This document shows, one piece after another, positions 13,469 through 31,020 of a stretch of 64,000 bases of DNA (position 1 is the stretch's first letter; every line of letters starts with the position of its first letter). This stretch comes from Flexibacter flexilis DSM 6793 (GTDB lineage Bacteria > Bacteroidota > Bacteroidia > Cytophagales > Flexibacteraceae): positions 124,001 through 188,000 of the forward strand of contig NZ_FOLE01000001.1 of assembly GCF_900112255.1 (NCBI RefSeq), written 5' to 3'. The position numbers and the translations under genes are program-made. Under the pieces are notes generated by a model. It worked only from the letters and a program-made list of their open reading frames with translations, made no database searches and was not told where the DNA came from.

Positions 13469-13864
13469 ATGAATTTTACAGAAGAAGGTAGTTTGAACGC
13501 ACTTATATTAGCACATCAATATTTTACGTTGCTCGAAATTGAAGGTATTGTAGATAACGGTTCTACTTTGCGCTTAGGTCATGTAGAAATTGATAAATAT
13601 TACGCAGGTTACAGAGTTTTTTCACACGGTTTTTCATCGGAATTAACTCATAATTCGATGTTTAGATTAATGCCATTCGACGTTCCTGTTGTAAATCGTT
13701 CGGGAATTGCAGCAATTTTTCAGGCTTCAATTCATAATGAAATTCCAGAGGAGTATTTTGCAGGTTGGGTGAATCAAAATAGAAAATCAGATCTGAAAAA
13801 ATGGATTTCGCAGATGAATAAGTACATTAAAAAAATGCTTAAAGAAACAAAAACTAGTAAATAG
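13469..13864 (+). CDS. Hypothetical protein of the immunity array
   Basis: A 131-residue soluble protein, family not recognised. It begins MNFTEEGSLNALILAHQYF, then LLEIEGIVDNGSTL (similar to a segment of its upstream neighbour), FRLMPFDVPVV and a lysine-rich C-terminal helix NKYIKKMLKETK. It is followed five bases later by the next gene, so it belongs to the same transcription unit. No function can be assigned. Confidence 0.57.
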   Translation: MNFTEEGSLNALILAHQYFTLLEIEGIVDNGSTLRLGHVEIDKYYAGYRVFSHGFSSELTHNSMFRLMPFDVPVVNRSGIAAIFQASIHNEIPEEYFAGWVNQNRKSDLKKWISQMNKYIKKMLKETKTSK

Positions 13865-13869
13865 GACAA

Positions 13870-14634
13870 ATGAAACGCGAACAACTTTTTGACTCAGTAT
13901 GTAATCAAATTAATGAAATTGAAGGCTTTCCTATTAGTTTTGGTTGTGAAAAATTACATGGAGCTTATGCTGATTTTCAGCGGCTTTTTCCTATATATTG
14001 GCCTAAGGTCAAGCAATTTGTAAATCTCAATTATAGTTTTATTATCAAAGATTATCAATTCTTTTTAGCTCTTGATAAATTCATAAATCCGTCCATTTTG
14101 TTGGCAACATTGGCATGTGCGGCAGGTGCTGAAAAAGGATATTGCAAACAATGGTATTCGATTATTGCCAAATTATCATCATTTCAAAAAAACAATAATG
14201 AGCATATACATAATTTAAAAGATATGCTTGTGTTCAACGCATTATCTGGTGAATTTGATATTGAACAGTTTAAGAATTGGCCTCTTTATCCCGAAACAAG
14301 AGCGACAGAAGTACGTGTGTTATATGCGTTGATGACAGGAAATTCATTATCAATCGATTCGGATAAATTATATTTCGACAATGCTCTTTGGTTACAATTT
14401 TACAATTCATTAAAAAATAATGATATAAAAAATACAAAGGCTGTTTTAATCAACTTTGCTGAATATTTCTGGAATAATTGTGAAGTAAACGAAACGCCAA
14501 TATATTCTCCAGAACAATATCCTTGTTTTGAACCCGATTACAACGCAGCATTAGCAATTGCCTCTTATCATTTTGACAAAAAAACAGATTTTGTTGAAGA
14601 AAAATATGAAAAATTCTACATTGGTGCTTTGTAA
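13870..14634 (+). CDS. Hypothetical helical protein of the immunity array
   Basis: A 254-residue, mostly alpha-helical soluble protein with many aromatic residues. It has segments LLATLACAAGAEKGYC, VRVLYALMTG and AVLINFAEYFWNN, and a C-terminal EPDYNAALAIASYHFD motif. The helical-bundle pattern with a terminal aspartate-tyrosine-alanine segment recalls several helical immunity families, but no specific family can be named. Spacing to both neighbours is five and twelve bases, consistent with one operon. Confidence 0.57.
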   Translation: MKREQLFDSVCNQINEIEGFPISFGCEKLHGAYADFQRLFPIYWPKVKQFVNLNYSFIIKDYQFFLALDKFINPSILLATLACAAGAEKGYCKQWYSIIAKLSSFQKNNNEHIHNLKDMLVFNALSGEFDIEQFKNWPLYPETRATEVRVLYALMTGNSLSIDSDKLYFDNALWLQFYNSLKNNDIKNTKAVLINFAEYFWNNCEVNETPIYSPEQYPCFEPDYNAALAIASYHFDKKTDFVEEKYEKFYIGAL

Positions 14635-14646
14635 TAAAAATTTGTT

Positions 14647-16077: not shown

Positions 16078-16128
16078 TAATACAATATAAATCAAACTGA
16101 TTTTATAATATTTCACTAACCAACAATC

Positions 16129-17142
16129 ATGGAATTATCTACAAGTATAACCCAGCAATTAAGCAGATTAGGCATTGAAATTGACAAGGACACACAGCTT
16201 GTGAAAATTAGTACCGACGAAACAGCATTTGTTGTGCCAGAGCCAATGAGTTGCTTTCTGAATAGTTGGAATAAATTCAAGAAAAAGCTGTTTTTCGATA
16301 AATATGAAGAAGGTATTCCCACGAACCCTATCGAAATAATATATCCAGATGAAGTTGATCGAGAAAATCAAGCAATTAGCGGTCAACCATTTGTATCAAT
16401 GTTTTGGGACAGCCATTATTCGTACTACATGCTCAGGGCAGACGATCCAAACCCTGACGATCCAGACTATTATTTCCTTGATCATGATGATTATGAGTCT
16501 GAAGAGCTAGAGCCACAGGGCAAACTAAGCGATTTGCTTTCATGCCTATACACGCGCGAACAGGCAAACGCGCTTGTAAAAGAAGAAGTGGACGAGGATG
16601 AAGTGGAGGAAATTGGCCTTTACCGCTGGATTTGCGATACTTATGGAAATCCTGTTGAAAGAATTAAGGCTGAAGATTGTGAGATTGAATCGCTTAAAGG
16701 GTTGGATGTTTATACGGATTTGAAAATTCTAAGTCTTTCCAACAACAATATTTCAGATATTTCTAAGCTTGATGCGCTAAAAAATTTGGAAGAATTGTCA
16801 TTGAATTATAATCAGATTACGGATATTTCGGCAGTTGCAAACAAAATACGATTAAAGTATTTTTCCATCAAGGAAAATAATGTTATTGATATTTTGGCTC
16901 TCGAAACCTGCGAAAATCTTCAAATTTTGGATTTATGCAACAATAAAATTTCCGATATTTCGCCCATTAAAAAGCTACATCAGCTAAAAAATATCTTTTT
17001 GAGGAACAATCCGATTAATGATTATTCACCTCTGGCATCATTACCCAAATTAGAACTGGTTACAGTTAGTAAAATCAGTGATGATGAGTTGGCGAAGTTA
17101 AAACAATTATTGGGCGAAAAAGTAAAAATTGACAACAACTAG
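16129..17142 (+). CDS. SMI1/KNR4-like domain protein with leucine-rich repeats
   Basis: A 337-residue soluble protein. Residues about 1-160 look like a SUKH (SMI1/KNR4) type domain with an FVSMFWDSHYSYYML core and an aspartate-rich loop (DDPNPDDPDYYFLDHDDY). After a linker (EEVDEDEVEEIG), residues about 195-320 form SDS22-type leucine-rich repeats of 22 residues, with the repeated pattern L-x-x-L-x-L-x-x-N-x-I-x-D-I-S. SUKH domains are widespread immunity modules; the LRR part probably binds a protein partner. Combining both in one polypeptide is less usual. Function is inferred from family and context. Confidence 0.68.
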   Translation: MELSTSITQQLSRLGIEIDKDTQLVKISTDETAFVVPEPMSCFLNSWNKFKKKLFFDKYEEGIPTNPIEIIYPDEVDRENQAISGQPFVSMFWDSHYSYYMLRADDPNPDDPDYYFLDHDDYESEELEPQGKLSDLLSCLYTREQANALVKEEVDEDEVEEIGLYRWICDTYGNPVERIKAEDCEIESLKGLDVYTDLKILSLSNNNISDISKLDALKNLEELSLNYNQITDISAVANKIRLKYFSIKENNVIDILALETCENLQILDLCNNKISDISPIKKLHQLKNIFLRNNPINDYSPLASLPKLELVTVSKISDDELAKLKQLLGEKVKIDNN

Positions 17143-17163
17143 TTAATCTTTATATATTGTGTT

Positions 17164-18123
17164 ATGAGTAAATTACAAGATTTAATTTTCAGTAAAGACT
17201 TAGAAGGCATTGCAAACCTCGTGAAGTCAGGCCAAGCTACTGCTAACGATGAAAATGGAGAACGTACTGCGCTTTCCTTAGCCGCAGCCTGCGGTTATAC
17301 GGATGTAATGAAGTGCCTGATTGAACTTGGAGCTGACATTAACAAATCCAATAGCGGAGATTTGGGTTACACGCCAATTATTGAGGCTGCCCGAGAAGGT
17401 AAATTGGAAGCTATTACGTTTTTGATAGAGGCTGGTGCGAATGTCGAATCTGTTGATACACGCAATGGAACCGCCTTGTTGCATGCTTGCATTTCTGCCC
17501 ACAACGATATTCTTCAGTTATTAATCAAGGCTGGGGCTAACGTAAATGCAACTGATAACGACGGTCAAACGCCTTTACATTACTTATGTCGTTTTGCGGT
17601 TTCGTGGGGAAGTGGGATGGTTTCCGAGACAATCAATGGCGTTACAAAAAAGATTGAAAATCAACGATTTAAACAACATACCGAAATATTTTTAACCTTG
17701 CTTAAGAATGGAGCAGACGTAAATCTTGTAACCAATTATGGTTTTACAGCCCTTACGCTTGCTGCCGATACTGATGCTTATCAGTTTATTCCGTTGTTGG
17801 TTGAGAAAAAAGCGGATGCCAATTTTCAGAATTCCAAAGGTTTTGCGCCAATGCATGCCGCCTGCGAAAAAGGCAATTTGTTGGTGGTGGAAGCCTTGAT
17901 AAAATGCGGTGCTAATGTCAATGTAATTGATAACGATGGTTTTACACCGCTTTTAGGTGCTTGTATGTCTTCTAACGTGGCCATTGCAAAAATTCTTTTA
18001 ACCAATGGAGCAAAAAAAGACATTCCTGCGAAAATATCTTACGGAAAAGTGGCCGCAGGTGATATTCCTTTGAATGTAGCCGAAAAAATTGGTAATCAGG
18101 AGATGATTAATCTTTTGAAATAA
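17164..18123 (+). CDS. Ankyrin repeat protein
   Basis: A 319-residue protein made almost wholly of ankyrin repeats. At least seven are visible with the T-x-L-x-x-A-x-x-G-x-x-x-x-x-x-x-L-L-x-x-G-A-D pattern, for example in ALSLAAACGYTDVMKCLIEL, LHACISAHNDILQLLIKAGA and MHAACEKGNLLVVEALIKCG. There is no signal peptide. Ankyrin proteins are recurrent in polyimmunity loci as generic toxin-binding scaffolds. It lies 21 bases after the SUKH-LRR gene on the same strand, probably co-transcribed. The exact partner is unknown. Confidence 0.85.
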   Translation: MSKLQDLIFSKDLEGIANLVKSGQATANDENGERTALSLAAACGYTDVMKCLIELGADINKSNSGDLGYTPIIEAAREGKLEAITFLIEAGANVESVDTRNGTALLHACISAHNDILQLLIKAGANVNATDNDGQTPLHYLCRFAVSWGSGMVSETINGVTKKIENQRFKQHTEIFLTLLKNGADVNLVTNYGFTALTLAADTDAYQFIPLLVEKKADANFQNSKGFAPMHAACEKGNLLVVEALIKCGANVNVIDNDGFTPLLGACMSSNVAIAKILLTNGAKKDIPAKISYGKVAAGDIPLNVAEKIGNQEMINLLK

Positions 18124-18303
18124 TTGACGGTAATCAGTATTAAGTTTTAAGCATTAAATCTTAAGGGTGATGATGAAAAATCGAACTATTTTGTGTATGA
18201 ATATGCATAATTTATGCAGATTTTGCCACTATTAGTAAGAAATATTTTTTTTAACATCACCCCTATTTACAATAAAATTTCACAAAAAATAAATTCAAAA
18301 AAG

Positions 18304-18810
18304 ATGAAAATTTTGACATTTTTAGTGCTGTCTTTTGTGTTTTTTCACAACCTTCAAGCAAATAATATTGAAGCCTTTTCTAGTAATAAAAATTTGATAT
18401 TATCTTATCAAAATTATCCTGATTCCTCCTCTCTTGACAATCGCTTTGATTTATATATAAGTCTTTTATTTAAATATGATATACAGGTTGATAGTATTTT
18501 AGGTGAAGAGTCGGTAAAAGGATATGATAAATATGATGAATTTTTCGATTATCGTAAAAATAAAATAAGAGTTTGGTTAGACAGAGGAGCTGTTTATAAA
18601 ATTTTGACAAAAGACAAGACAGTTGATTTTTTAGGTACGCATATTGGCAATAATGTTCAATCTTTCAGAAAAGTTTTTGGCAAATCTAGGAGAGAAGAAA
18701 AAGGTGCTGTCCATTTTAATTTTGACGGCACATACATCGTTGTAAAATATAACCCAAAAACAAAAATAACCTTGGGTGTTTTTATCATGAATGAAGATTA
18801 TGAGAAATAA
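18304..18810 (+). CDS. Secreted hypothetical protein of the immunity array
   Basis: The start at 18304 is preferred over an upstream in-frame codon because MKILTFLVLSFVFFHNLQA forms a typical signal peptide, with cleavage after LQA. The mature part is about 149 residues, strand-rich, with a WLDRGAVYKILTKD segment and a terminal FDGTYIVVKYNPKTKI hairpin. It is not recognised as a family. It is the only clearly exported product in the array, so if it is an immunity protein it would act in the periplasm. It overlaps the next SMI1 gene by up to 20 bases, suggesting coupling. Confidence 0.6.
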   Translation: MKILTFLVLSFVFFHNLQANNIEAFSSNKNLILSYQNYPDSSSLDNRFDLYISLLFKYDIQVDSILGEESVKGYDKYDEFFDYRKNKIRVWLDRGAVYKILTKDKTVDFLGTHIGNNVQSFRKVFGKSRREEKGAVHFNFDGTYIVVKYNPKTKITLGVFIMNEDYEK

Positions 18811-19267
18811 AATACCCAAATTTAATATAGAAATGAGTTTGCAAGGAGATCCATTAAGCGTAAACGACATAGAAAAAGCAGAGGAACAATTAGGACGGCA
18901 AATACCTGACGAATACAAAGCATTTTTACTTCAATTCAATGGTGGACACCCTGAACCATGCAATTTTGTACGCCCAATGCATGATACCGCAATAGATAGT
19001 GTAAGCCTTTTTTATGGTTTATTTTTAAAATACTCTTATAATTTGATTGGGATATACAATGAGTACGCAATGCGAATGCCTACTGAATTTTTGCCAATAG
19101 CAAGTGTTGGAGGTTGTCAAATTTGTATTTGCACAGATGGTGAAAATATTGGAAAGCTTTACTTTTGGGATAGTGATGAAGAAAATCCTGATGAAGAACA
19201 ACCATGTTACGATAATATTTATTTATTGTCGGATTCTTTTACTGCTTTTATAAACTCTTTATCTTAG
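18791..19267 (+). CDS. SMI1/KNR4 (SUKH) family immunity protein
   Basis: A 158-residue SUKH-superfamily protein. The characteristic core is present: LSVNDIEKAEEQLGRQIPDEY (read as IEKAEEQLGRQIP then DEYKAFLLQFNGG), followed by PTEFLPIASVGGCQICI, a Y-F-W-D strand and the C-terminal SFTAFINSL helix. This is the canonical domain of bacterial toxin immunity proteins. The start may be at 18791 or at an ATG nine bases downstream; both overlap the end of the secreted-protein gene. It is eight bases upstream of the next gene. Confidence 0.85.
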   Translation: MKIMRNKIPKFNIEMSLQGDPLSVNDIEKAEEQLGRQIPDEYKAFLLQFNGGHPEPCNFVRPMHDTAIDSVSLFYGLFLKYSYNLIGIYNEYAMRMPTEFLPIASVGGCQICICTDGENIGKLYFWDSDEENPDEEQPCYDNIYLLSDSFTAFINSLS

Positions 19268-19274
19268 TATTGTT

Positions 19275-20288
19275 ATGCTTTTAAGCACTCAAAAACTAAT
19301 TAAATACCTCAAAATTTCTGATAAAAAGGATATTTCAGTTATTCAGTTTTATATCAATGTGGCATTATTAAGCGGTAACAAATCGGATTCGGATGCTTTA
19401 TTGAAAATATTTTTATCAGATCCAACCGAATATAGTTATTCAGTTTTTTTTGATTTATTTTTCAAATTTGGAGATAAAAAATATGCTGAAGAAATCTATT
19501 CAATAAGTGTCAAAGATGGCATTCTGCAAGAAAATATGCCTTGCGAAATTCTTGAACTTTTCGGAAGATTTCAATTCGAACCTACCAAAAATTTGTTGAT
19601 TAAGTACGCATTGAATATTGATATTGAAACCGATCACTATTTGAGTTTAAGTGCCATACAAGGCTTATTATACTTCGATTGTACAGATTATCATGATATT
19701 ATCAAAGAAAAAATTGAAGCATGCTATGATAAAAATATATTTTCAGAATTTGTCCCGACACTTGTATGCAAATTACGGGATAAGAAACCAGTTTTAGAAC
19801 GATTGTATGAAACAGGCTGTAAATATGCTTCAACCGATTGTAATGCAGGTATTGTATTAGGATTTTCATTATGTGGAGACGAAGGCAAAAAATACTTTTT
19901 ATCGTTATTGTTCGACAAGCATTGGGAAATGTATTCCACTGGTACAGGGAATACAAAATTTGCCTACAAAGGATTATTAAATTTAAAAATAAGCATATTA
20001 GAATTATTTAGAATAATAACGACATTTGAAGATATCGAACAACTCTCTTATGGCGTAAACCTAATTCTTTCGTTTATTGAATGTAAAGCGGATGATTATA
20101 CAGACGAGCTAAGTGAATCTTTTTTAGACATTTACACCCAACTTTTTTTACATAATAATACCGAAATCAATATACTAAAACTTGCCCGTAAAGTAGCGTC
20201 ATCTGATAGGACTTATCATGTAAAAAAAATAATTGAACTAAAAATAATGGAAAGTTTTACCAAAAATAATTATCTTTGCGCCATATAA
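19275..20288 (+). CDS. Hypothetical helical-repeat protein of the immunity array
   Basis: A 337-residue soluble, predominantly helical protein, likely an alpha-solenoid: repeated helix pairs such as SVIQFYINVALLSGN, EILELFGRFQFEPTKNLLI and YLSLSAIQGLLYFDC are visible. The family is not recognised. It follows the SMI1 gene by seven bases and is followed by a 199-base gap, so it probably ends one segment of the array. No catalytic motif is seen. Confidence 0.58.
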   Translation: MLLSTQKLIKYLKISDKKDISVIQFYINVALLSGNKSDSDALLKIFLSDPTEYSYSVFFDLFFKFGDKKYAEEIYSISVKDGILQENMPCEILELFGRFQFEPTKNLLIKYALNIDIETDHYLSLSAIQGLLYFDCTDYHDIIKEKIEACYDKNIFSEFVPTLVCKLRDKKPVLERLYETGCKYASTDCNAGIVLGFSLCGDEGKKYFLSLLFDKHWEMYSTGTGNTKFAYKGLLNLKISILELFRIITTFEDIEQLSYGVNLILSFIECKADDYTDELSESFLDIYTQLFLHNNTEINILKLARKVASSDRTYHVKKIIELKIMESFTKNNYLCAI

Positions 20289-20487
20289 AATATAGCTCGA
20301 AAATAACCCAAAAATCTAGGTATTACACTTAAAACAAGCCACACAAACTATACAATAGCTACACATAAACCACTTAAAATATATAAATTCATAAAGTAAT
20401 TGTATTATTAAAAATAAGCGAAGATAATTTGGGTATTATCTCTAAAATTAACAGTCATAAATAATAAATCTTTTAAAATAAACGCAG

Positions 20488-21060
20488 ATGGAAAAGCAAC
20501 AATATTTGGTGATTTCTGAAGAAACTAGCCTTGCCGATATCGCTAATAAATTTTATTTTTATAAGTGGGATTGGATGGATGAAGTAGATGAGCAAGAATC
20601 CAGTCCTTACACTCGATGGTATCTTGACAAGCAAACCAATACGAGCATCTATTACAGAGAAGAACAGAAAGATGTATTTTCATCAAGGTATTTTTATGTA
20701 AAAGGTACTGATATTGATAACACCATCCTGCAATTACGAGATGCGGCAACCATTTTGTCTCAAGAAGATCTGGTAAAAAATTTCAATCAAGAAACCGATA
20801 GTTTAAAGCGTGGAAGTGCAATTTATCAGCTTGGCATTATTCTAACTCTTGAGGCGTTTACGCCATCAATCTTGGCAGTTTTTGCGGCAGGCCTGCAAGA
20901 CAGTATTCCAGGCGTTCGTATTGCATCACTTTGGGGTATGGCGTGGCCGCATTGGGCTGAATTTAAACCGTTAGTTGAGCAAGCTCTACAAGATGAGGAT
21001 ACTGGGGTGCAAAAAACTGCGAAAGCATTGCTTAACGCACTTGAAAAAGCCAATAAGTAA
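20488..21060 (+). CDS. HEAT-like putative immunity protein, paralogue 2
   Basis: A 190-residue soluble protein, paralogous to the product of 11573-12163. It has an N-terminal beta region (TNTSIYYREEQKDVFSSRYF), the EDLVKNF helix and two C-terminal HEAT-like helix pairs (GIILTLEAFTPSILAVFAAG, GVRIASLWGMAWPHWAEFKP). The shared W-x-E-F-K-P-L motif near the end supports paralogy. It is preceded by 199 non-coding bases that may carry a promoter, and followed 12 bases later by the WGR gene. The role is inferred as immunity. Confidence 0.65.
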   Translation: MEKQQYLVISEETSLADIANKFYFYKWDWMDEVDEQESSPYTRWYLDKQTNTSIYYREEQKDVFSSRYFYVKGTDIDNTILQLRDAATILSQEDLVKNFNQETDSLKRGSAIYQLGIILTLEAFTPSILAVFAAGLQDSIPGVRIASLWGMAWPHWAEFKPLVEQALQDEDTGVQKTAKALLNALEKANK

Positions 21061-21072
21061 GCATTTGAAAAT

Positions 21073-22356
21073 ATGAAAAAATGGCTTGAATACAACGACG
21101 AAAATTCCAGCAAATTCTGGGAAATAGAAGTAATTGATAACATTTTTTTTGTGCGATACGGCAAAATCAATTCTGATAGAAAAACGCAAGAAAAGGCATT
21201 TGCCAACAACGAAATTGCGTTAAAAGAAGCGAATAAACTAATTGCCGAAAAAATGAAAAAAGGTTATACAGAAAATGGCAATAATACGTTTATTACTAAA
21301 AAAAATTCTAAAAATTTATCCCCGTATTTGAACGATATTTATGGGCTTGATCTGAATTGGGATCATAGTCTTGACGACTGTGATATAAATATTTTTCCAA
21401 ACTTTTGCGTTGAAAGTATTTATTCAATTGGCAGTACGGGGCACAACCATTTGGTTAAATGTATTTTACCTGAAGTCGATCCTCAGCATTATCCTATTGC
21501 TATATATAGCGAAGAGGAAGGCACGTCAAAAGTGATTGCAGCTACGATCGAAACGTGGTTTCCTTCTTATTTAATTTATAGGGTAAACAATTTAATGGAA
21601 TATTATTGGCATTGCGAAAAGAATGGCTATCTGGATAGTGCTGAATTTACCATCAAAGATTTGAATAATATCTTAGAATTTAGGGAAAATATCACTGCAA
21701 TTTGCAAGGATTTCGACAATGAAAACTTTTTGTATATTCTTCCAAATCTTTTTAAAACTATTGAAACAAAATCAAAAGATCAATGGAATTATAAAGAATA
21801 TCTCAAAATAGCTGAAAAAGGATCTGTTATTTCTAAATACATTGCGTTAGAACAAAATAGTTCCGAAGTTGAATTGTCTCAATTTTTCATTGAAAATAAA
21901 ACGTTTAACGCCGCTATTTTTGCTCTTTTTAAACCCAATACTGTTGTAAAGCAAGAGATTGCATTAGAGGTGTTCAAAAGAAGGCTGAATCACGATTTTG
22001 GCAATAGCTCCGAAATTATAAACCTAATAATAAACTGTGCAAACAGTTGTAATTCATATATCAGTAAAGATTCTCCCTATAAACCATTGCTGGAAATTAT
22101 AGTCAGTAAATCAGATAACAACATTATTTTTAGTGATGAATTTTTTGAATTAGGTAAACGATTAAAAAAGGCTGAATTATACAATGAAGCCATTTCTGCA
22201 TTCGAAAATGCGATGTATTTTAGTACAGGTGAAAATGAAGAATTTCATTTCAATGCCTTCAAAGCTTTAAAAGGAATTGCAAAAAAAATTAATGATAAGG
22301 CGTATGAGAAGTACATTTCTAAATATGCAAAAATCGTAAAAGAATACGAGGAATAG
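21073..22356 (+). CDS. WGR domain protein
   Basis: A 427-residue soluble protein. Residues 1-68 are a WGR-type domain (KFWEIEVIDNIFFVRYGKI, then TQEKAFANNEIALKEANKLI), a small module otherwise known from PARPs and MolR-type proteins where it binds nucleic acid or protein. The middle (about 90-200) contains an alpha/beta region with IAIYSEEEGTSKVIAATIETW, which is reminiscent of SUKH-type folds. The C-terminal 100 residues contain TPR-like helices (AELYNEAISAFENAMYFSTG). Such WGR proteins are common in polyimmunity loci. The precise function is unknown. Confidence 0.72.
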   Translation: MKKWLEYNDENSSKFWEIEVIDNIFFVRYGKINSDRKTQEKAFANNEIALKEANKLIAEKMKKGYTENGNNTFITKKNSKNLSPYLNDIYGLDLNWDHSLDDCDINIFPNFCVESIYSIGSTGHNHLVKCILPEVDPQHYPIAIYSEEEGTSKVIAATIETWFPSYLIYRVNNLMEYYWHCEKNGYLDSAEFTIKDLNNILEFRENITAICKDFDNENFLYILPNLFKTIETKSKDQWNYKEYLKIAEKGSVISKYIALEQNSSEVELSQFFIENKTFNAAIFALFKPNTVVKQEIALEVFKRRLNHDFGNSSEIINLIINCANSCNSYISKDSPYKPLLEIIVSKSDNNIIFSDEFFELGKRLKKAELYNEAISAFENAMYFSTGENEEFHFNAFKALKGIAKKINDKAYEKYISKYAKIVKEYEE

Positions 22357-22370
22357 AAATCGAAAATACC

Positions 22371-23627
22371 ATGAAAGACAAAGATTATTTAAAGTCAGAA
22401 GAAATAATAAATGCTTCTTTGGGAGGGTTTATGGGCAAAACGCTGACGAATGAAACCAAAGGTATTGAATTATTTCATACATTTAAAGGCGCAAAAACAT
22501 TTGCACCTTTATTGGTAGCACCCAATATTGAATATATTCGGATTCGCACAGATGCAAAAATCCCTGAATTTGATAGCATTGTGGAGTTAAATAAATTACG
22601 GAAAATTGTACTTGAAGGTAATTTAACAATCAATTCGCTTACTGCACTTGAAAAATTTCCGAAACTAAAGGAGTTAGAACTTCAAAAAATATTTCCATTG
22701 CTGGATGGTTTAAAGCTAAACATCGAGAAATTAGAAATTGCAAGCACGACTTTGGATAAAGTTAGTTATTTGCGCAATATGCCCAACCTCAAACATGTAT
22801 CTTTGGGCAATAGTGTCATTTATACCAATATCAATGATTCAACAGATTTCTCGGCAATAAAGCAAATAGAATACCTTTATATTCTTTCAAGAAGCTTGAC
22901 CAAATTAGACAATCTGAAAGTATTAAAAAATCTACGCTCTTTGTGGATTCCTGCTAATAGAAAACTTAAAAGCATCGAAGGTATTCAAGAAATGAATAAT
23001 CTTGATGTTTTTGCTTTTTACAGAACTGATGTTAAAGATTTATCGCCAGTTTCAGGACTAAATTTAAAATACATTTCTGGTGGAGAAACTAATATTAAAA
23101 CCCTTAAAGGTGTTCATCTAAAAGATATTATACGGCTTGAATTAAACAGCACACTTCTGAAGAAATTTGATGCTGAATCAATGCCAAATCTTGAATATCT
23201 TAGCCTGTTTAATACTCCTTTAAATAGCCTTAATGAGCTTGAAAACTTCTCCTCAATAAAACAATTATCTCTTGAATCTTGTAATGATATTTCGGATTTT
23301 TCTATTTTAGGTAAAATGCCTAATTTAGAAATTCTTGATTTGCATAAAATTTCAATACCTGAGGATACACTCATTAAGATATTGGATGCTCCAAAGCTCA
23401 AAATTATCAATGTTGAAGGAAATGACGCGATAAAAAACATAGAGCCGAATAGTGCTATAACAAAGGCTCGTGAACGAAATATTCATTTCTGTTATAAAAA
23501 CAGAGAGTATGCCGAATTTATGCGTAATTATGATAAACGCTTTGGCACTCTGGCATATTATATGCATCTTTTTGAAGGTGATAAAAACAAATGGACTTAT
23601 CTTTCAGATAAAGGGTTTCATGTATAG
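22371..23627 (+). CDS. Leucine-rich repeat protein
   Basis: A 418-residue soluble protein dominated by leucine-rich repeats from about residue 50 to 360, of the irregular bacterial type with L-x-x-L-x-L and N-L-x-x-L units (for example MPNLKHVSLGNSVI, LKNLRSLWIPANR, MPNLEYLSLFNTPLN). The last 60 residues are a basic aromatic tail with FMRNYDKRFGTLAYYMHLFE. There is no signal peptide, so it stays in the cytoplasm. It lies 14 bases after the WGR gene and is probably co-transcribed with it. It is presumed a toxin-binding immunity scaffold. Confidence 0.78.
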   Translation: MKDKDYLKSEEIINASLGGFMGKTLTNETKGIELFHTFKGAKTFAPLLVAPNIEYIRIRTDAKIPEFDSIVELNKLRKIVLEGNLTINSLTALEKFPKLKELELQKIFPLLDGLKLNIEKLEIASTTLDKVSYLRNMPNLKHVSLGNSVIYTNINDSTDFSAIKQIEYLYILSRSLTKLDNLKVLKNLRSLWIPANRKLKSIEGIQEMNNLDVFAFYRTDVKDLSPVSGLNLKYISGGETNIKTLKGVHLKDIIRLELNSTLLKKFDAESMPNLEYLSLFNTPLNSLNELENFSSIKQLSLESCNDISDFSILGKMPNLEILDLHKISIPEDTLIKILDAPKLKIINVEGNDAIKNIEPNSAITKARERNIHFCYKNREYAEFMRNYDKRFGTLAYYMHLFEGDKNKWTYLSDKGFHV

Positions 23628-23705
23628 ATGATTGAAATTTTCATGGATTTATCTTGCATCAAAAGCGAATAAATATTTTTCTAAAACTGTTGTTATAGTT
23701 AAGCG

Positions 23706-23713
23706 TAAGTTTG
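23706..23713 (+). promoter_or_regulatory. Possible internal promoter -7 box
   Basis: A perfect Bacteroidota -7 box, TAAGTTTG, lies 18 bases upstream of the gene at 23732 after a 104-base gap. No good TTTG is found at the expected -33 distance, so the promoter is tentative. Confidence 0.35.
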
Positions 23714-23731
23714 AAATAAATATAAAACAGA

Positions 23732-25039
23732 ATGGAGAATAAATCAACTTTATTTCATATTGGAGATGAATTTTATTGCCGAATAATTAAAGGTCATCAA
23801 GAATCAGATTATGAAGATTTGATTCATAATTTATATTATCCTGAAGAAATATGGAATTGGAATGCAGAAAAAGGAATGCACCTTAATCCTAAAACTGATA
23901 TTTCGGAAGAAGAATTGGTTCAGTTTGATGGCAATGATATTATACTGGAGATAGCAAAATTTGTGCAAGGGAATAAGGTTTCCTCTTGGTTATTAGCACG
24001 TTTATGGTACTTAACAGATGGGTATATTATAAACACAATAAATAGTTTAGATAATAATTTGGTCGGCAGTTCAGATGGTGGCGATTTTTATACTTACATG
24101 CTTATCGAAAATACTCGCGAACCTATTGGAGTTCTAGAATTTAGAGGCTCACCCGATTATTCAAGTATTACTATTACAAAGAGATCAGTGGATTTTAAGG
24201 TCCAAAATTTAACGCATTTCTATCGTCAATTTGCAGCTAAATTATTGGATGAACAAAGGCAGTTGAGCATTTGTGAAATTACAGTAAAAGACCCAGAATT
24301 ATTATTATATCCCTACAAATACGGTTGGAATGGACAAGAATTATTAAGATATTCGGAATACGATGTTCTTGAATGGTTTACCAATAATGGAATGCAGGAA
24401 TTAAGGCTAATTTTAGAAACTGCATTAGAAAATATAAAAAATAATCCTCTACATCATTTAGAAAAAGGAATCAGAAATACCGTAATTTCTCAAATAAAAT
24501 CGCATAAAATATTTACACAGCATTACAAAACGTCTGACTTTTCGATTATTCAACGTTTAGAAATGCATTGTATTCAATATACTGGAAAAATTTGGAGTGA
24601 TATTTGGCCAAATAATGAGACATTCAAACGATTACAGCAAGTTTTTTATCAATTAAAATCTTCTAAAATTCAATCCAGTAAAATCGTATTTTCTTTTGAA
24701 AAAGAATGGAAATATATGCAACAATGGGTAGAAGAAACATATTTAACAGATACCAATCACAAACGCCATAAATTCGCCGCTTCATTTGTTGGACTCGCTA
24801 TGGTTTTATCAATTCATAATATACGCAATAATTCAAAAAATGAGGTTGATTCAGCGTCAAATTGGGAAATAGATTCTGAAACAGATTTTTACATAGAAGA
24901 TATTCATTTTTATGCAGCTTGTGCTTATGCAAATGGGCTTCCGTATAAAAAAGATGGCTTCGAAATTGGCGATTCGCAGAAGTATCTAACATTTTGGCGA
25001 TGGTGGCTTTTTGAGGCAATACCGCAAGCATATCGTTAA
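23732..25039 (+). CDS. Large putative immunity protein with Imm5-like C-terminus
   Basis: A 435-residue soluble protein. The N-terminal 240 residues are unrecognised alpha/beta (GSSDGGDFYTYMLIENTREP, SITITKRSVDF). The C-terminal part is helical and contains FAASFVGLAMVLSIHNIRN, then ACAYANGLPYKKDG and the aromatic FWRWWLFEAIPQAYR end, which recalls the Imm5 family. The family is named from memory of the terminal W-x-W-W-L-x-E-A-I-P pattern and is tentative. A -7-like promoter box precedes it. It is flanked by gaps of about 100 bases. Confidence 0.55.
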   Translation: MENKSTLFHIGDEFYCRIIKGHQESDYEDLIHNLYYPEEIWNWNAEKGMHLNPKTDISEEELVQFDGNDIILEIAKFVQGNKVSSWLLARLWYLTDGYIINTINSLDNNLVGSSDGGDFYTYMLIENTREPIGVLEFRGSPDYSSITITKRSVDFKVQNLTHFYRQFAAKLLDEQRQLSICEITVKDPELLLYPYKYGWNGQELLRYSEYDVLEWFTNNGMQELRLILETALENIKNNPLHHLEKGIRNTVISQIKSHKIFTQHYKTSDFSIIQRLEMHCIQYTGKIWSDIWPNNETFKRLQQVFYQLKSSKIQSSKIVFSFEKEWKYMQQWVEETYLTDTNHKRHKFAASFVGLAMVLSIHNIRNNSKNEVDSASNWEIDSETDFYIEDIHFYAACAYANGLPYKKDGFEIGDSQKYLTFWRWWLFEAIPQAYR

Positions 25040-25138
25040 GCCAAACGAGATAATAAAGGAAAAATAACTAACAGAAATACAGGATTGAATCAAAGTCAAA
25101 ATTAGTTGTATTTTTACTAGAAGTTATATTTAATTTAT

Positions 25139-25912
25139 ATGCATCATATGAAAAAAGTAATCATGGCTCTTGTGGGAAATCATCGTTTTTATGACTTAGA
25201 GGTTTTAGCTTCGGTTATTAATATTTTTGAACAAGATAATCTATTAAAACCAGAATATTATTCCTCTGATGATCGTATGTATTACGACTATAATCACGAT
25301 GATATTATTTCATTTGCGACTGGCGATGTATTACCGTTTGACTTGCAGATTCGGCGTAAAAAACGTATCAAATACAACTCAATAATAAAACTTGATGACA
25401 GACCTGGAATAAATATAGATTTCGGTCAGAATATTGCCTCGAAAGATTTGGCGTATTCTTTTGCGTTTGCCAATCGTTTAGCAGAAACATATCGTCCCGA
25501 TTTTGGCTGGATGCATCTATTTTCTGGTAATCAACCACCTTTTGAAGATGAGTTGGCCAGAAATATATATCGAATTGATATTGGCATGAGTGGCATTGCT
25601 CCCCGATATGATCGGTACGGTCCAGGTGGGCTTGGACTAAGAACCTTTATCGGGCCACGCTATGTTGAAATTTTTGGGCGTGAGCTACTTCTCTCCACCC
25701 CAGCACATATAAAAGAATTATCGTGGGGCGGGATTTGTATTGATCTCGTTCCAAATCCATGGCAGGCTACGCCAGAGGACATAATTCCTGTTTGGCAGCA
25801 GTCCATGGAACATCTGCGTTCTGCACAAGTATTTACGCATATCGAACTGAATGATGTTGGGGCTGTATCATTTGAAGTGAATAAACATCCCTTATCTCGT
25901 AGAACCCTTTAA
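25139..25912 (+). CDS. Putative immunity protein (DUF3396/Imm52-like layout)
   Basis: A 257-residue soluble protein. The start may be at 25139 (MHHMKK) or at the methionine three codons later, 25148. It contains FGWMHLFSGN, a glycine/tyrosine-rich GIAPRYDRYGPGGLGLRTF loop, then GPRYVEIFGRELLLSTP and WGGICIDLVPNPW. The order of the FGW, G-x-R-x-F-I-G and W-G-G-I segments resembles the DUF3396/Imm52 type and the product of 10338-11126, but similarity is weak. It is likely an immunity protein by context. Confidence 0.55.
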   Translation: MHHMKKVIMALVGNHRFYDLEVLASVINIFEQDNLLKPEYYSSDDRMYYDYNHDDIISFATGDVLPFDLQIRRKKRIKYNSIIKLDDRPGINIDFGQNIASKDLAYSFAFANRLAETYRPDFGWMHLFSGNQPPFEDELARNIYRIDIGMSGIAPRYDRYGPGGLGLRTFIGPRYVEIFGRELLLSTPAHIKELSWGGICIDLVPNPWQATPEDIIPVWQQSMEHLRSAQVFTHIELNDVGAVSFEVNKHPLSRRTL

Positions 25913-25926
25913 ACTGAAGAAGTAAC

Positions 25927-26007
25927 ATGAATTGGCACAAACAAGTATTGCCCTACGAGCAGGCGATAGGCGATGTTACCTGGGCGCGCACGTTTGGCAG
26001 CGAGTAG
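25927..26007 (+). pseudogene. Short gene fragment, 26 codons
   Basis: A tiny open frame (MNWHKQVLPYEQAIG...TFGSE) sits 14 bases after the previous stop and 21 bases before the next start. It is visibly richer in G and C than the surrounding array genes and stops abruptly, so it looks like the 5' remnant of a lost gene. No family can be assigned from 26 residues. Confidence 0.35.
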
Positions 26008-26028
26008 TAAGATTAGTGAAAAAACATT

Positions 26029-26451
26029 ATGAAAAAAAGTGAATTAAGTACAGCGCAAATTTCTCAAATCGAAATGATTTATTCTCTGATGAAAAAAGCA
26101 GGTTGGAATGGAAGAATATCTAACGATTTGTTTTTCAATAAAGAATTTTATTTTCCGCACGAAGCTGTATTTGATTATCACAATAGAGAATCAAATCTCG
26201 TTTTTATGTTTTCTTCATCAAAGGCAAAGGTTGATATCACTATCTCTGACAAATTTGGATATCTAAATTTTGTTGTATCCGTTGATGGCTGTTTTGAGAA
26301 ACTGTATGAAATATTGACAAAGTTTCAGAATGCTCTTTCTTGTACAAATTATATGGATTTTATTCGGGAAGTTATTTTAAATTTCCCAGATAAAACATTC
26401 ATTTACGAAAATGATGAGCTTAAAATATTAAAGCTAAATAAAAATGGATAA
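26029..26451 (+). CDS. Hypothetical protein of the immunity array
   Basis: A 140-residue soluble protein, family not recognised. It opens with a helical segment (LSTAQISQIEMIYSLMKKAG), continues with strands (AVFDYHNRESNLVFMF, KVDITISDKFGYLNFVV) and ends in a lysine-rich tail. Its last eight bases overlap the next gene, which suggests translational coupling with the DUF3859 protein. Confidence 0.57.
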   Translation: MKKSELSTAQISQIEMIYSLMKKAGWNGRISNDLFFNKEFYFPHEAVFDYHNRESNLVFMFSSSKAKVDITISDKFGYLNFVVSVDGCFEKLYEILTKFQNALSCTNYMDFIREVILNFPDKTFIYENDELKILKLNKNG

Positions 26452-27697
26452 ACAAACTATAGAAAACGAATTAATTAATTCGTATTTGGAAGCAGAAAAT
26501 GCTAAAAAATTGAATTTAGATTTTAAAGAAAAAAAAGCCATTTTCAACAACTATTACGACCAATTAGTTGAAATAGAGCCAAGTCTCACACCAGCAAAAG
26601 TGGCTAATTTTATTTCAGATCAACTAAAAGCTGAATACGGTAAAATTTACTTTTTAGTTTTCAATATGCGACTCGAAAGTATAACGTTGCCTTTGAACGA
26701 AGTACTTCTTACGGTGGATATTCGAAAAGCAGGCACCTTCCAAAAACCTGATGTCGATAACCTGATGCCCGACGATATGCACATTATCGACCCAAGCGGC
26801 AAGGTGGAAGCTGATGTAGAGGTGTATTTTGGTGTTGCCTTCGTCGTTACCAATCTTACTAAACAACCGATCACCATCGAATACCGTTTGGAATATCCGC
26901 CCATGACCAACCCCGATACTGGAAAAACCAATACGGGTTCGTCAGAAAAAATCAAATTTGATCCTGGCGCAACCGAAAAAGGCCATTATTACTATTTCCT
27001 CGACGAATGGGAAATGGTGGAAGGTGCTTGGGAATTTTCGTACACGGCTCCTAATGGCATGAGACTTTCGAAAATATTTGACGTAAAGAAAAATATTTTG
27101 AGCAAAAAAATTGAAGCAAAAACTGACTTGCCAAAGCAAGAACCTCATCAGAGAAAAAGTTTTTACTACTTAGAAATGATTGCCGAACCAGGCGGAATGA
27201 GTGAAGTATTTGAAATGGTTTCAGGCTCTGCCGAAAACATAAAAAACATGATAACAAGCAGAATAAAAACGGCTATGGGTTTTTATGCTTTACTCTCATA
27301 CGGACAGACAATATTGATTCACAAGTACATAGATGGAGTGCGTACAAATTCCATTGATGCTCACCAGTTTTTGAAGGTAAATATACCTAACAAATTATCC
27401 GCTTCTTTTTCGGAGGACAACAAACCTGTAATACTGGATATTGACGGGAAACCAATCGACAAATCAAGTCTTGTTGATTTTCTCTTTGATTATGTTGCTT
27501 TTGATGAAAGTACAGAAACAGTTTTTTGGGGCGATTGGGAATCCAAATTAGGGGCACTAACAGGCGATATTGCCTCAAGCCAAGAAGAAATATATTTTGA
27601 TGGAAATATACTCACAGCAGATACGGTCAATGAATTCAATTCGGGCGAGTCTTATTCGATTGAAGAATTTATGGAAATATGTAAAAAACCTGTTTAA
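26444..27697 (+). CDS. DUF3859 domain-containing protein
   Basis: A 417-residue soluble protein. Residues about 90-215 match DUF3859: a beta-sandwich with FGVAFVVTNLTKQPITIEYR, the proline motif EYPPMTNPDTGKT, and FLDEWEMVEGAWEFSY. The rest (215-417) is unrecognised alpha/beta with EMIAEPGGMSEVFEMVSGSA and an acidic end. DUF3859 domains are known in bacterial polyimmunity contexts but have no proven activity. It overlaps the preceding gene by eight bases and is the last gene of the plus-strand array, 13 bases before a large palindrome. Confidence 0.72.
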   Translation: MDKQTIENELINSYLEAENAKKLNLDFKEKKAIFNNYYDQLVEIEPSLTPAKVANFISDQLKAEYGKIYFLVFNMRLESITLPLNEVLLTVDIRKAGTFQKPDVDNLMPDDMHIIDPSGKVEADVEVYFGVAFVVTNLTKQPITIEYRLEYPPMTNPDTGKTNTGSSEKIKFDPGATEKGHYYYFLDEWEMVEGAWEFSYTAPNGMRLSKIFDVKKNILSKKIEAKTDLPKQEPHQRKSFYYLEMIAEPGGMSEVFEMVSGSAENIKNMITSRIKTAMGFYALLSYGQTILIHKYIDGVRTNSIDAHQFLKVNIPNKLSASFSEDNKPVILDIDGKPIDKSSLVDFLFDYVAFDESTETVFWGDWESKLGALTGDIASSQEEIYFDGNILTADTVNEFNSGESYSIEEFMEICKKPV

Positions 27698-27758: not shown

Positions 27759-28080
27759 CTACAAAGAACAATCCTTACAAATTCCTGTCAGCACACAATT
27801 AACATTTTCGACGTGATAACCACTCGGAACAGCAAAACGAACCGCTTCGGGCAAACATTCTATGGTCTGGCATTGAGTACAGCGAAAATGAAAATGATTG
27901 TTAGTGAAAACTTTTTCGTCACATTTCACACATACCGCAAAATACTGCTTTCCGTCCTCTCTATGATTTTATGTACTAATCCATCTTCACAAAAACGGTT
28001 TAGCACTCTGTAAATAGTAGCTCGGTCAATTGCTACGTCTATTTTTTGTTCAATGGCATCACTGCTCATGGCCTTTAATG
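27759..28080 (-). pseudogene. Broken Fur-family regulator
   Basis: Minus-strand remnant of a Fur/Zur-family metal-dependent repressor. The first part reads AMSSDAIEQKID then IDRATIYRVLNRFCEDGLVHK, the winged-helix DNA-binding half. After a two-base frameshift near GAGAGGAC (about 27950-27965) it continues as DGKQYFAVCVKCDEKVFTNN, HFHFRCTQCQTIECLP and NCVLTGICKDCSL, the metal-binding dimerisation half with paired cysteines, to a stop at 27759-27761. The normal N-terminus is missing: upstream sequence is replaced by a copy of the AI-2E gene start. It cannot make a functional protein. Confidence 0.8.
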
Positions 28081-28084
28081 TACT

Positions 28085-28290
28085 TGCTTGCGGTCTTGGG
28101 AGGAAGTATAAATGCTATTCATGGGTTTTGTTTTTGATTAGGCGATGCGTGCGAAGCACAAATAAGTTGTATTCACTTGGCAGTAGAGGGCGACATACGC
28201 TGCACAGACCAACCAAGCACAATAAAAACACAAAAACGCTTGGAAAGGCGCACAGATTTAAGATTTTGCAAAGAGGTATATAAAACTTTG
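28085..28290 (-). repeat. Diverged copy of the AI-2E gene start and upstream region
   Basis: On the minus strand, 28122 down to about 28085 reads MNSIYTSSQ, identical in protein to the AI-2E transporter start at 8212, with synonymous base changes. Upstream (28123-28200) the sequence remains alignable to 8213-8300 through TTTTGTTTTTGATT, ACAAATA, GTTGTATYCAC and GGCAGTA. After a stretch absent here, 28220-28290 aligns to 8437-8507. The copy is fused to the inside of the Fur remnant, so it is debris of a rearrangement. Confidence 0.72.
28220..28290 (+). repeat. Intergenic repeat, copy B
   Basis: Second copy of the short repeat also found at 8437-8507 and 30388-30441, in the same orientation. 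Common landmarks are AATAAAAACACAAAAACGCTTG and GATTTTGCAAAG (compared in segments), here followed by TATATAAAACTTTG as in copy A. It lies immediately upstream of the AbiL-like pair. Confidence 0.68.
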
Positions 28291-28374
28291 ACAGGGCACG
28301 CACTCATAAACGTGAAAATTTCACACAAAACAAGAAATAATATTTTTTATTTTTTAAAACACAAACAGATTAAG

Positions 28375-28404: not shown

Positions 28405-29757
28405 ATGTTAATAAGATTTGTATTAGAAAACATGTTCTCTTTTGGCGAAAGAAAAGAGTTTACTACAATACCCAATACGAGACTAAAAACATTACAGGAT
28501 CATAAGTATAATGTAAGTGGATTTGAAATACTCAAACTTTCATCCATTTACGGGGCAAATGGCGCGGGAAAATCAAACTTAATTAAATCTCTTTTTCAGC
28601 TTCAAAAACTGATTACGAGAGAAGAAATCCCCTTCAAATTAAAAGACACTCAGTACAAATTTGGTCGTCAAAAGGAACAAGTTTTAGCAGTTGAATTTAT
28701 TCAAGAGAATACGCCTCTATACTATGGAATCGTATTTTCCGAAGATAAAATACTAGCAGAAGAATTGTATATCTCTGGACTGGGCAAAAAAGAAGATAAA
28801 TTAATTTATGAAAGAAAAACCATTGATGAAAAAACTACAATTAAATTTCTTGATGAATTTGAAAATGACGAAAAAAGTCTGGTTCTCAAGGATGTTTTAT
28901 TAGAAGAGTTTGTAAAACCCAATGAGCCAGTATTAAAATTATTATCGAATAGAGATAATAAATTTTTAAAAGATGTGAAGAAAGCGTATGGATGGTTTTC
29001 TGAAACGCTGCAAATCATAACACCAGATTCAAAACCAAGAGCATTAGCCCATAAAATTGATACTGATATTGATTTTAAAAAATATGCAGAAGATTTAATG
29101 CGCTCTTTTAATATTGGGATTAAATCTTTAGGAACCGAAAAAAAGAATATTCGAGAATTTTTCGGAGAAGATAATGAGAATGAGCTTGACAAGCTGATAA
29201 AAGAAGTGGAAGATTCGCCTAAAAAAATGCTGGGACTACGAAGCAGACGTGGAGATGAATTAGTCTTAGTGAAGGAGCATGATACGATTTGGGTTAAAAC
29301 TTTAAAAGTTGAACATTCTTCAAATAACAATTCTGCTTTTTTTGATTTGGATGAAGAGTCTGACGGAACCGTAAGACTATTAGATTTTGTACCAGCTTTC
29401 AAAAATGTAATTTCGTCAGAAAAAGTATATGTTGTTGACGAAATAGAAAGAAGCATACATCCACTTTTAATAAAAGAGCTTGTTAAAAAATTCTCGTTAG
29501 ACAACCAAACTAAAGGGCAATTGCTATTCACAACACACGAATCTAACTTATTAGACCAAGAAATCTTTAGGCAAGATGAAATTTGGTTTGCAGAAAAAGA
29601 TTTGAATGGCTCTACGGATTTGTACTCGTTGAGCGATTTTAAGGAACACAAAACAATTGATATTAGAAAAGGCTATCTTAATGGTAGATATGGTTCAGTT
29701 CCATTCTTGGGAAATTTAGAAGACTTAAAATGGCACAATTATGATTTTAAGCAATAG
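28405..29757 (+). CDS. AAA family ATPase (AbiLi/RloA-like)
   Basis: A 450-residue cytoplasmic ATPase of the OLD/AAA15-like group. The N-terminus (MLIRFVLENMFSFGERKEF) is typical of RecF-like structural-maintenance ATPases. The Walker A motif is GANGAGKSN at about residue 51; the signature and Walker B region is VYVVDEIERSIHPLL near 345, followed by the switch FTTHESNLLD. It overlaps the RloB gene by 17 bases, so they form an operon. ATPase plus RloB is the composition of the AbiL abortive infection system and of RloAB pairs, in which the ATPase is thought to sense phage and control the TOPRIM-like partner. The assignment to anti-phage defence is inferred from this pairing. Confidence 0.82.
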   Translation: MLIRFVLENMFSFGERKEFTTIPNTRLKTLQDHKYNVSGFEILKLSSIYGANGAGKSNLIKSLFQLQKLITREEIPFKLKDTQYKFGRQKEQVLAVEFIQENTPLYYGIVFSEDKILAEELYISGLGKKEDKLIYERKTIDEKTTIKFLDEFENDEKSLVLKDVLLEEFVKPNEPVLKLLSNRDNKFLKDVKKAYGWFSETLQIITPDSKPRALAHKIDTDIDFKKYAEDLMRSFNIGIKSLGTEKKNIREFFGEDNENELDKLIKEVEDSPKKMLGLRSRRGDELVLVKEHDTIWVKTLKVEHSSNNNSAFFDLDEESDGTVRLLDFVPAFKNVISSEKVYVVDEIERSIHPLLIKELVKKFSLDNQTKGQLLFTTHESNLLDQEIFRQDEIWFAEKDLNGSTDLYSLSDFKEHKTIDIRKGYLNGRYGSVPFLGNLEDLKWHNYDFKQ

Positions 29758-30391
29758 GCTTTTTGAAAGACAAGCTCCAAGCAGAGAAGCGAAAAGTGTA
29801 TATATTTTCTGCGAAGGAGCCAGAAGAGAATATCAATATTTCAACTATTTTAGAGAAATTGATTCTCGTATTAAAGTTGAGGTAAATAAATTAAAATCAG
29901 ATGAAAACAATTCGCCGAAAGGTCTTTACGAATTAGCCGAAAACTCATTTATTGGAGAAAAACCAAAATTTACAATCCAAGAAAATGACGAAATATGGAT
30001 TGTTTTAGATACTGATCCAGACAAGGCCAATAGCCGAGCAGAACAAATAAAACAAGTGAAAGAAGATTGTCAATCAAAAGGCAATTGGTTTGTTGTAGAA
30101 AGCAATCCTTGCTTTGAAGTTTGGTTATTCTTCCATCAAAATGAAAAATTTGAAGCGTTTGACGCTGATGATTTTTGTAAAGGTTGGAAACAAAAAGTAG
30201 GTGAGCAAGGCGGATTTGATTCGAGAAAACATCCTATTTTTATAGAAGAGGCCATTCGCAATGCTGAAAGGAATTACCGAACGAATGAAAATAACAGGCC
30301 ATTAAAAGGTTCGTCCGAAGTTTATTTATTAGCAAAGAGTATATTCGCTGTAATTAAAAACAAAATAAGAGCAGCCAAAAATAAATTATAA
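29741..30391 (+). CDS. rloB: RloB family protein (AbiLii-like)
   Basis: A 216-residue soluble protein of the RloB family, with a TOPRIM-like fold expected to bind Mg2+ and cut nucleic acid. Visible motifs are VYIFCEGARREYQYFNYF (the glutamate of the TOPRIM motif), EIWIVLDTDPD (the D-x-D motif) and the family signature VESNPCFEVWLFFH. The C-terminus is helical and basic. It starts inside the ATPase gene. In AbiL-type systems this component is the likely toxic effector released upon infection. Copy C of the short repeat begins at its stop codon. Confidence 0.85.
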   Translation: MILSNRLFERQAPSREAKSVYIFCEGARREYQYFNYFREIDSRIKVEVNKLKSDENNSPKGLYELAENSFIGEKPKFTIQENDEIWIVLDTDPDKANSRAEQIKQVKEDCQSKGNWFVVESNPCFEVWLFFHQNEKFEAFDADDFCKGWKQKVGEQGGFDSRKHPIFIEEAIRNAERNYRTNENNRPLKGSSEVYLLAKSIFAVIKNKIRAAKNKL

Positions 30392-30441
30392 AAACACAAA
30401 AACGTTTGCAAAAGCCATACTTATTTAGGATTTTGCAAAGG
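30388..30441 (+). repeat. Intergenic repeat, copy C
   Basis: Third copy, matching the first 55 bases of copies A and B (ATAAAAACACAAAAACG, TTGCAAAAG, TTTAGGATTTTGCAAAG). It starts at the stop codon of rloB, so copies B and C flank the AbiL-like pair as direct repeats. Confidence 0.65.
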
Positions 30442-30504
30442 AATGCCAAGCAAGATAACGGTTTGTTTATACGGATGTTAGTAACAATTTAAAAATAAAA
30501 CAGA

Positions 30505-31020
30505 ATGACGGAAAAAATCATATCACTACATAAGTATTGGATATATGCTGACAAAATGAGATTACTTTTTAGAAATGCTGTAAAAGAAAATGCAGAAGAA
30601 ATACAAAAAGAGTCTCATAACGAAATAGAAGCATTTGTCAAAACACATTTAATGTTATTAGGTGAATTTGGTATTTTTAAAAGTTTTTGGTATAGTTCAT
30701 TATATACAGTAATCGAAGGTTATCAAGATTTGAAGTTATCAATTCCTGAAATAGACGAGTTACTTGATGCCGAAAATATTGGCAAGCTGAAACTTTTTAG
30801 AAATGGAACATATCATTTTCAAAAAGAAATTTACAATCATAAATTATTAGCAGTAGACCAATCAGACGAATTTGTTGAGTGGATTTATAAAATCCATAAA
30901 GAATTGGGAAATCACATTATAAAGGCTGGAATGAGTCAATTTAGCGAGGATGCGCAAAAGAGTATAAAAAACAATATGAACTCTATATTTGGAGTAGATT
31001 TATCAAATTTACTTGAATAA
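30505..31020 (+). CDS. Putative HEPN-like protein
   Basis: A 171-residue, mainly helical soluble protein. It contains the segment KLKLFRNGTYHFQKE, in which R-N-G-T-Y-H fits the R-x4-6-H motif of HEPN ribonucleases at the right place (start of a late helix after a four-helix core). The early part (DKMRLLFRNAVKENAEEIQKE) and LGEFGIFKSFWYSSLYTVIE are helical as expected. No partner nucleotidyltransferase gene is adjacent. It lies after the AbiL-like pair and before lysS, 114 bases past rloB. The HEPN call is from the motif and helix pattern only. Confidence 0.5.
   Translation: MTEKIISLHKYWIYADKMRLLFRNAVKENAEEIQKESHNEIEAFVKTHLMLLGEFGIFKSFWYSSLYTVIEGYQDLKLSIPEIDELLDAENIGKLKLFRNGTYHFQKEIYNHKLLAVDQSDEFVEWIYKIHKELGNHIIKAGMSQFSEDAQKSIKNNMNSIFGVDLSNLLE

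Follow-up and report, generated by a model that had tools for sequence, protein, structure and literature searches.

A duplicated AI-2E transporter start and a dispersed leader-like element at an immunity and defence locus of Flexibacter flexilis DSM 6793: a possible tandem join of two leader-headed locus versions

In the present study, we analysed a window of 64,000 nucleotides from Flexibacter flexilis DSM 6793 (contig NZ_FOLE01000001.1, positions 124,001 to 188,000), in which the start of an AI-2E family transporter gene is present twice, each time together with a copy of a dispersed, leader-like element. Our preferred reading, to which we assign a probability of about 0.42, is that the duplicated unit comprises the AI-2E start and the leader of an integron-like cassette system, and that two leader-headed versions of the locus, one with an immunity gene array and one with AbiL, may have been joined in tandem.

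The duplicated transporter start and its surroundings

The features of the locus are as follows (window positions).

7193-8212, minus strand: intact AI-2E family transporter gene (PF01594, E 6.7e-42)
8178-8229, minus strand: first copy (A) of the start of AI-2E with its leader, identical to the second copy (B) at 44/52 positions
8230-8420, minus strand: upstream spacer of copy A, ~130 nt longer than the spacer of copy B
8709-27697, plus strand: low-GC (32.8%) array of immunity-type genes (DUF6892, Imm26, SUKH, ankyrin, LRR, Imm5)
27765-28069, minus strand: Fur-family gene fragment (PF01475), 5' end missing, frameshift near 27956-27965
28088-28139, minus strand: second copy (B) of the start of AI-2E with its leader, similar to copy A up to codon 10-12 and joined to the Fur fragment
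28140-28204, minus strand: upstream spacer of copy B (3/1000 shuffles as good against the spacer of copy A)
28405-29757, plus strand: AbiLi-like AAA ATPase (PADLOC AbiLi, E 5.5e-74; PF13304)
29741-30391, plus strand: AbiLii/RloB-like protein (PADLOC AbiLii, E 2.6e-22; PF13707, E 1.3e-27)
30505-31020, plus strand: ORF of 171 aa, 28% GC, with no Pfam or PADLOC match

The two regions were aligned in blocks, each of which was judged against 1000 dinucleotide-preserving shuffles. Block 1 (8178-8229 against 28088-28139) had a score of 36, the best shuffle reaching 19.5, and block 3 (8418-8510 against 28201-28290) was also strong; in both cases, 0/1000 shuffles were as good, by which chance similarity of these blocks was ruled out. 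The similarity to the AI-2E start that a sequence-only reading of this DNA had placed at 28.1 kb is, thus, present and lies beyond chance, and the AI-2E 5' region is, as that reading held, duplicated in direct orientation, with the array having a copy on either side. The intervening spacers (block 2, 8230-8420 against 28140-28204) were weakly similar (3/1000 shuffles), with a length difference of ~130 nt. The similarity between the loci was not significant to the left of 28088 (422/1000 shuffles) or to the right of 28290 (384/1000 shuffles), and, therefore, the duplicated unit starts at AI-2E codon 10-12 and stops where block 3 ends. Its right side ends just before low-GC genes. Block 3 is as significant as block 1 but not private to AI-2E, since it belongs to an element that occurs 30 times across the genome, as described below; half of the repeat is, thus, a genome-wide leader-like sequence, which the earlier reading had missed.

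Regarding the coding part, copies A and B differ at four positions in codons 1-9 (MNSIYTSSQ), all four of which are synonymous; the chance of this outcome is 0.0012 if changes are even over sites, for a cut at codon 9 that was set after the data had been seen. Codons 10 and 12 carry non-synonymous differences. The reading frame of copy B is MNSIYTSSQDRKQVH, followed by a stop after 15 codons. A single AI-2E match was found in the whole genome, with copy B covering 10-12 codons and no full-length second gene. The synonymous differences in codons 1-9 suggest that both copies diverged as coding sequences and that copy B was cut afterwards, which speaks against its previous description as a decayed copy. 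The changes had also been described as synonymous with small indels, but the two copies differ by more than small indels.

The Fur fragment directly adjoins copy B on the left and lies on the same strand; when its two frames were read as one, PF01475 was matched at 27.0 bits against a cut-off of 23.1. Since this fragment is located between the array and copy B, the exact bracketing of the array that had been claimed does not hold, and a third copy of the element lies beyond AbiL. An inspection by eye of the six-frame lists of 11 loci from relatives revealed no Fur gene within ~1.5 kb of AI-2E. The families of the array were read from 14 of its genes that were scanned. On the other side, AbiLi and AbiLii are neighbours directly behind the element, and their profile matches identify them as a defence pair of the type of the AbiL abortive infection system. 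The gene to the right of the 171-aa ORF encodes a class II tRNA synthetase and is, by reading, probably lysS. We found no evidence of an array expansion by recombination between copies A and B, and the earlier reading of an insertion or expansion at a duplicated transporter 5' region is partly supported.

A leader-like element dispersed over the genome

A genome search with copy B revealed a third similar place at 30388-30440, and the three window copies were combined in a model, R1. Twenty R1 matches were fetched, 15 of which entered a second model, R2; L034, L035, L039, L041, and L042 were left out, and L034 was recovered by R2 as L063. The copies in the window are as follows.

8438-8528, plus strand: element A, heading the immunity array, with a degenerate right arm (R2, 45.6 bits, E 2.0e-11)
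28221-28314, plus strand: element B, heading AbiL (R2, 45.8 bits, E 1.9e-11)
30387-30480, plus strand: element C (L052), heading the 171-aa ORF, with a complete right arm ending in TGTTTATACGGATGTT (R2, 60.2 bits, E 5.7e-16)

With R2, we found 30 genome copies of an element of ~100 bp at E <= 2.7e-4, the next match being at 0.055; 15 of the 30 had been in the R2 model itself. Clear copies in the window were limited to those at 8438, 28221, and 30387. A weak match was also observed at 59465-59518 (15 bits, E 0.0011 for the window), and element C begins at the stop codon of the AbiL pair. Within the set of 30, element A is most similar to B and B to A, which indicates that the two go back, along with the AI-2E start, to a single copy.

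No match to the element was found in the genomes of 58 relatives under stricter search filters. In a class sample of 394 other genomes, in which 10 candidates were scored per genome, also under stricter filters, nine had one weak match each at 20.5-22.8 bits; in the genome of F. flexilis itself, 29/30 copies scored at least 25.2 bits and the 30th scored 22.8.

Downstream of each of the 30 copies, the nearest ORF with a minimum length of 70 aa is on the strand of the element, at a median distance of 43 nt; the genes that follow are mostly low in GC and look foreign for the most part, and GC is lower downstream than upstream in 27/30 (means of 32.4 vs. 40.6). The element itself consists of an A/T-rich stretch and two TTTG boxes at a fixed spacing, and intact copies end on the right with YGTTTATRCGGAT directly followed by GTT, where the foreign genes begin; the attI-like arm is missing in about half of the copies. 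The single-strand folds of elements A, B, and C share no structure that would represent a conserved hairpin or terminator, and their fold z values ranged from -2.24 to -0.16 (minus strand) and from -1.85 to -0.86 (plus strand). Two Rfam matches were obtained, both below the gathering score and far from the repeat. The element may be a dispersed promoter and attI-like leader, and we infer both its landing-site and its promoter function.

Cassette-like signatures in this genome and in relatives

As a rule, the start of an integron cassette is complementary to the sequence near its own end. In five of the 14 anchored islets, the sequence with which the element ends on the right recurs, as its reverse complement, 4-11 nt behind a stop codon of that islet (L028, 12/12; L047, 10; L048, 10/12; L064, 11/12; L050, 9/12). 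No such signature was found in the other nine anchored islets or in the three islets of the window, and 16/30 element copies are without an anchor. Inner cassettes with complementary ends were also found in L047 (10 and 10) and, by eye, in L028 (9/9) and L050 (8/9). In a stricter pairing test, which covered 11 of the 14 anchored elements and left out L067, L068, and L073 with no recognisable right arm, 5/11 own pairs reached 8/10, compared with 1.86 on average and at most 6 over 600 derangements, which is weak, while 4/11 own pairs reached 9/10 against 3/110 cross pairs, which is better. Among 82 low-GC genes, four showed a complementarity of at least 9 nt, the permutations having a mean of 0.16 and a maximum of 2. 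Three of these are the L047 cassettes, and the fourth, in L074, is a gene read as an insertion-sequence transposase; since its inverted pair is located at a transposase-like gene, it is not regarded as cassette evidence.

Sites resembling attC lie between such genes. A model built from ten of these, R3, found 12 sites in the genome, namely, the ten training sites and two more, one behind an element (C5:280713) and one with no element in front (C4:297649). As detected by R3 rather than IntegronFinder, clusters of at least two attC-like sites without an integrase are present, for example, in the L028, L047, L064, and L050 islets. One site, L047_2, has a clear hairpin of 20 bp; across the sites, covariation was not above that of shuffles, and the fold z values for three of them were weak (-1.77, -0.67, and -0.31). 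A plain scan for arm complementarity was discarded as a detector of attC because sites were not separable from the background in 4/5 control loci. No attC-like site was found in the window (one match at E 0.2 and, in another scan, a best E of 1.2). Seven genome matches to the integron integrase model TIGR02249 were obtained, none of which exceeded the cut-off, and a genome search with the integrase of a relative gave no match at E <= 1e-25. Given that neither an integrase of the genome nor an attC-like site of the window was found, the only link between these two gene groups, the array and AbiL, and the cassette system is the element in front of them.

R3 also matched in 16/58 relatives under stricter filters, with the matches forming arrays in several of them. 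Seven fetched stretches contained 29 sites, including eight in L136 and five in L133; in both of these, SSB lies ahead of the attC-like array, and in L133 SSB is itself preceded by an integrase gene (integrase-side platform at 4047-5444 of L133, attC-like array to 11146). The best PDB match of this integrase was IntI4, in two stretches (E 6.7e-34), and its score with the integron-integrase model was 191 bits, which is below the cut-off of 265. It appears to be without the usual integron-integrase insert because the IntI4 stretch between the two matches was unaligned. Integrases that were at least 60% identical and nearly full length were found in five relatives (G044, G011, G019, G013, and G034), all of which had attC-like matches; partial integrases were found in G055, which had no attC-like matches, and in G012, which had one. 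The integrase and attC-like matches were on the same contig in G044, G013, G019, G034, and G029, and separate in G011. In another relative (G014, C1), eleven integrase matches were observed, several of which had nearly equal scores.

Nine distinct integrase/SSB contigs were compared, and an SSB gene was present in six (L133, L136, L138, L141, L142, and L145) and not found in L143, L144, or L146. As a group, these six represent Cytophagales/Chitinophagales contigs with an IntI-like tyrosine recombinase and an attI-like core, often with SSB. Among the platform contigs, L133, L136, and L138 carry attC-like arrays. A core, CGTNTAT-N6-GTT, was present near the integrase or SSB gene in 8/9 distinct contigs, L138 being the exception, with a pattern that was picked after the sequences had been seen and with the relatives of the integrase from Firmicutes (L147-L156) and L157 left out. 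The same post hoc pattern was found in 2/30 copies of the element in its strict form and in 10/30 in a relaxed form, the latter being present in element C and not in A or B. The contigs that combine an integrase, SSB, the attI-like core, and attC-like sites possibly represent an integron platform of Bacteroidota.

Origin of the locus and competing explanations

In the reading that we prefer, the element would be the dispersed promoter and landing site of an integron-like cassette system that works without an integrase in this genome. AI-2E would once have had a single leader beside it, behind which the immunity array was located in one lineage and AbiL in another, and the array version and the AbiL version would subsequently have been joined in tandem beside AI-2E. 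The likeliest route is that DNA from a related strain was taken up and recombined homologously on the AI-2E side, while the other side was closed by an illegitimate join between a Fur gene and codon 10-12 of AI-2E; the AI-2E start that the recipient already had would have been left as a stub fused to the broken Fur gene. A mechanism of this kind, in which one junction is homologous and the other illegitimate, has been described previously (PMC3240628). Homology-facilitated illegitimate recombination of this type, which we propose for the present locus, would yield both a stub and an additive insertion.

This reading draws on the borders of the duplicated unit, the 30-copy element, the same-strand genes behind it, the cassette signatures of some islets, and the attC-like sites and integrase of relatives, and the synonymous differences between copies A and B are consistent with divergence of two genes that were both functional. 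Evidence against it comes from the negative searches for an attC-like site in the window and for an integrase in the genome, from elements A and B, which have no attI-like right end, from the nine anchored islets with no cassette signature, from the weak pairing at 8/10, from the low covariation and fold z values of the attC-like sites, and from the cassette locus C4:297649 with no element before it. Neither a donor nor an empty site was observed; no same-genus genome was among the relatives returned, and a contig search with AI-2E for other genomes recovered no relative.

A simpler history, which we consider less probable, is a tandem duplication of AI-2E within the genome, after which one copy was cut by a deletion into the neighbouring Fur gene, with the array and AbiL arriving later and unrelatedly and the element being uninvolved. 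The direct orientation and the fused stub suit a duplication plus deletion, both copies are on one chromosome, and a donor was not found. However, the restriction of differences in codons 1-9 to synonymous ones (0.0012, with the post hoc cut) means that, under this history, a full-length second gene had to persist; furthermore, the duplicated unit ends with the element, right before low-GC genes. The nature of the element may also be viewed differently. On a tentative reading, it would be a promoter that is mobile or has been copied many times, or else a REP-like repeat, which became fixed before acquired genes and has no role as a recombination landing site. The fixed spacing of the TTTG boxes, gene starts at a median of 43 nt past the element, the lack of the attI-like arm in about half of the copies, and the negative search for an integrase in the genome agree with this. 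Mobile promoters and REP-like repeats are likewise dispersed non-coding repeats before genes, but they differ from the present case, in which cassette junctions lie at the end of some element copies, exactly at the right end in five islets. This right end also resembles the attI-like core of integrase-bearing relatives at an equal distance from GTT, and terminal repeats or target duplications were not noticed by eye in the copies.

It appears improbable that each islet was brought in by a mobile element other than an integron, one that has a terminal sequence of its own and whose left end is the dispersed element. The single left-end sequence, followed by many different cargoes, speaks for such an element, but an all-against-all blastn comparison of the downstream 5 kb revealed no right end common to all islets, only pairwise repeats, and the right ends that do recur are attC-like.

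The system that we propose resembles an integron (Pc and attI, cassettes, attC) in the leader before the first cassette, the complementary cassette ends, and the attC-like sites between cassettes, some of which form tandem arrays in relatives; it differs in that ~30 leaders are spread over one genome, in which an integrase gene was not found. As in CALIN, attC-like sites occur without an integrase, here in the genome and not in the window; in contrast to CALIN, most of these sites are behind a conserved leader, and many islets have a leader without a recognisable attC. According to the IntegronFinder 2.0 paper, an integron typically carries a single attI near its integrase, and in Bacteroidetes only In0 had been seen before a complete integron was found in Salinibacter ruber (PMC9024848). 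Bacteroidota are named among the phyla with integrons in a paper on archaeal integrons (PMC9668308). In the open-licence literature, nothing was found on dispersed leaders or multiple attI sites, a negative result that is weak at this scope.

A wider reading, on which we place rather little confidence, is that one integron leader has spread to ~30 places, which serve as separate pads for defence, immunity, and accessory islets, with the integrase being missing or external. Known integrons have one landing site next to the integrase, whereas some 30 leader copies would precede acquired islets here. If this reading is correct, the element would be part of a lineage of Bacteroidota integrons with an insert-less integrase, often paired with SSB, and its own attI core; many positions on the chromosome could simultaneously maintain and express cassette genes; and the element would provide a sequence tag for locating defence and immunity islands in the lineage. 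The platform in relatives, with its IntI-like integrase, often SSB, the attI-like core, and attC arrays, would make the function of an integron of Bacteroidota directly testable.

Regarding the content of the islets, Rpn/PDDEXK_2 genes were considered as candidate movers; of 21 in the genome, five are in the listed islets (L028, L050, L062, L064, and L073), and, therefore, they are not a general mover. The L050 and L064 islets carry near-identical Rpn-like genes at their right ends (87% over 761 nt). In the L074 islet, an ORF located 2073-2513 behind the element resembles a small transposase of the insertion-sequence/REP type and has an inverted pair of 15 nt at its ends. Another short repeat of 44-87 nt is common to intergenic stretches of the L049, L070, L071, and L073 islets.
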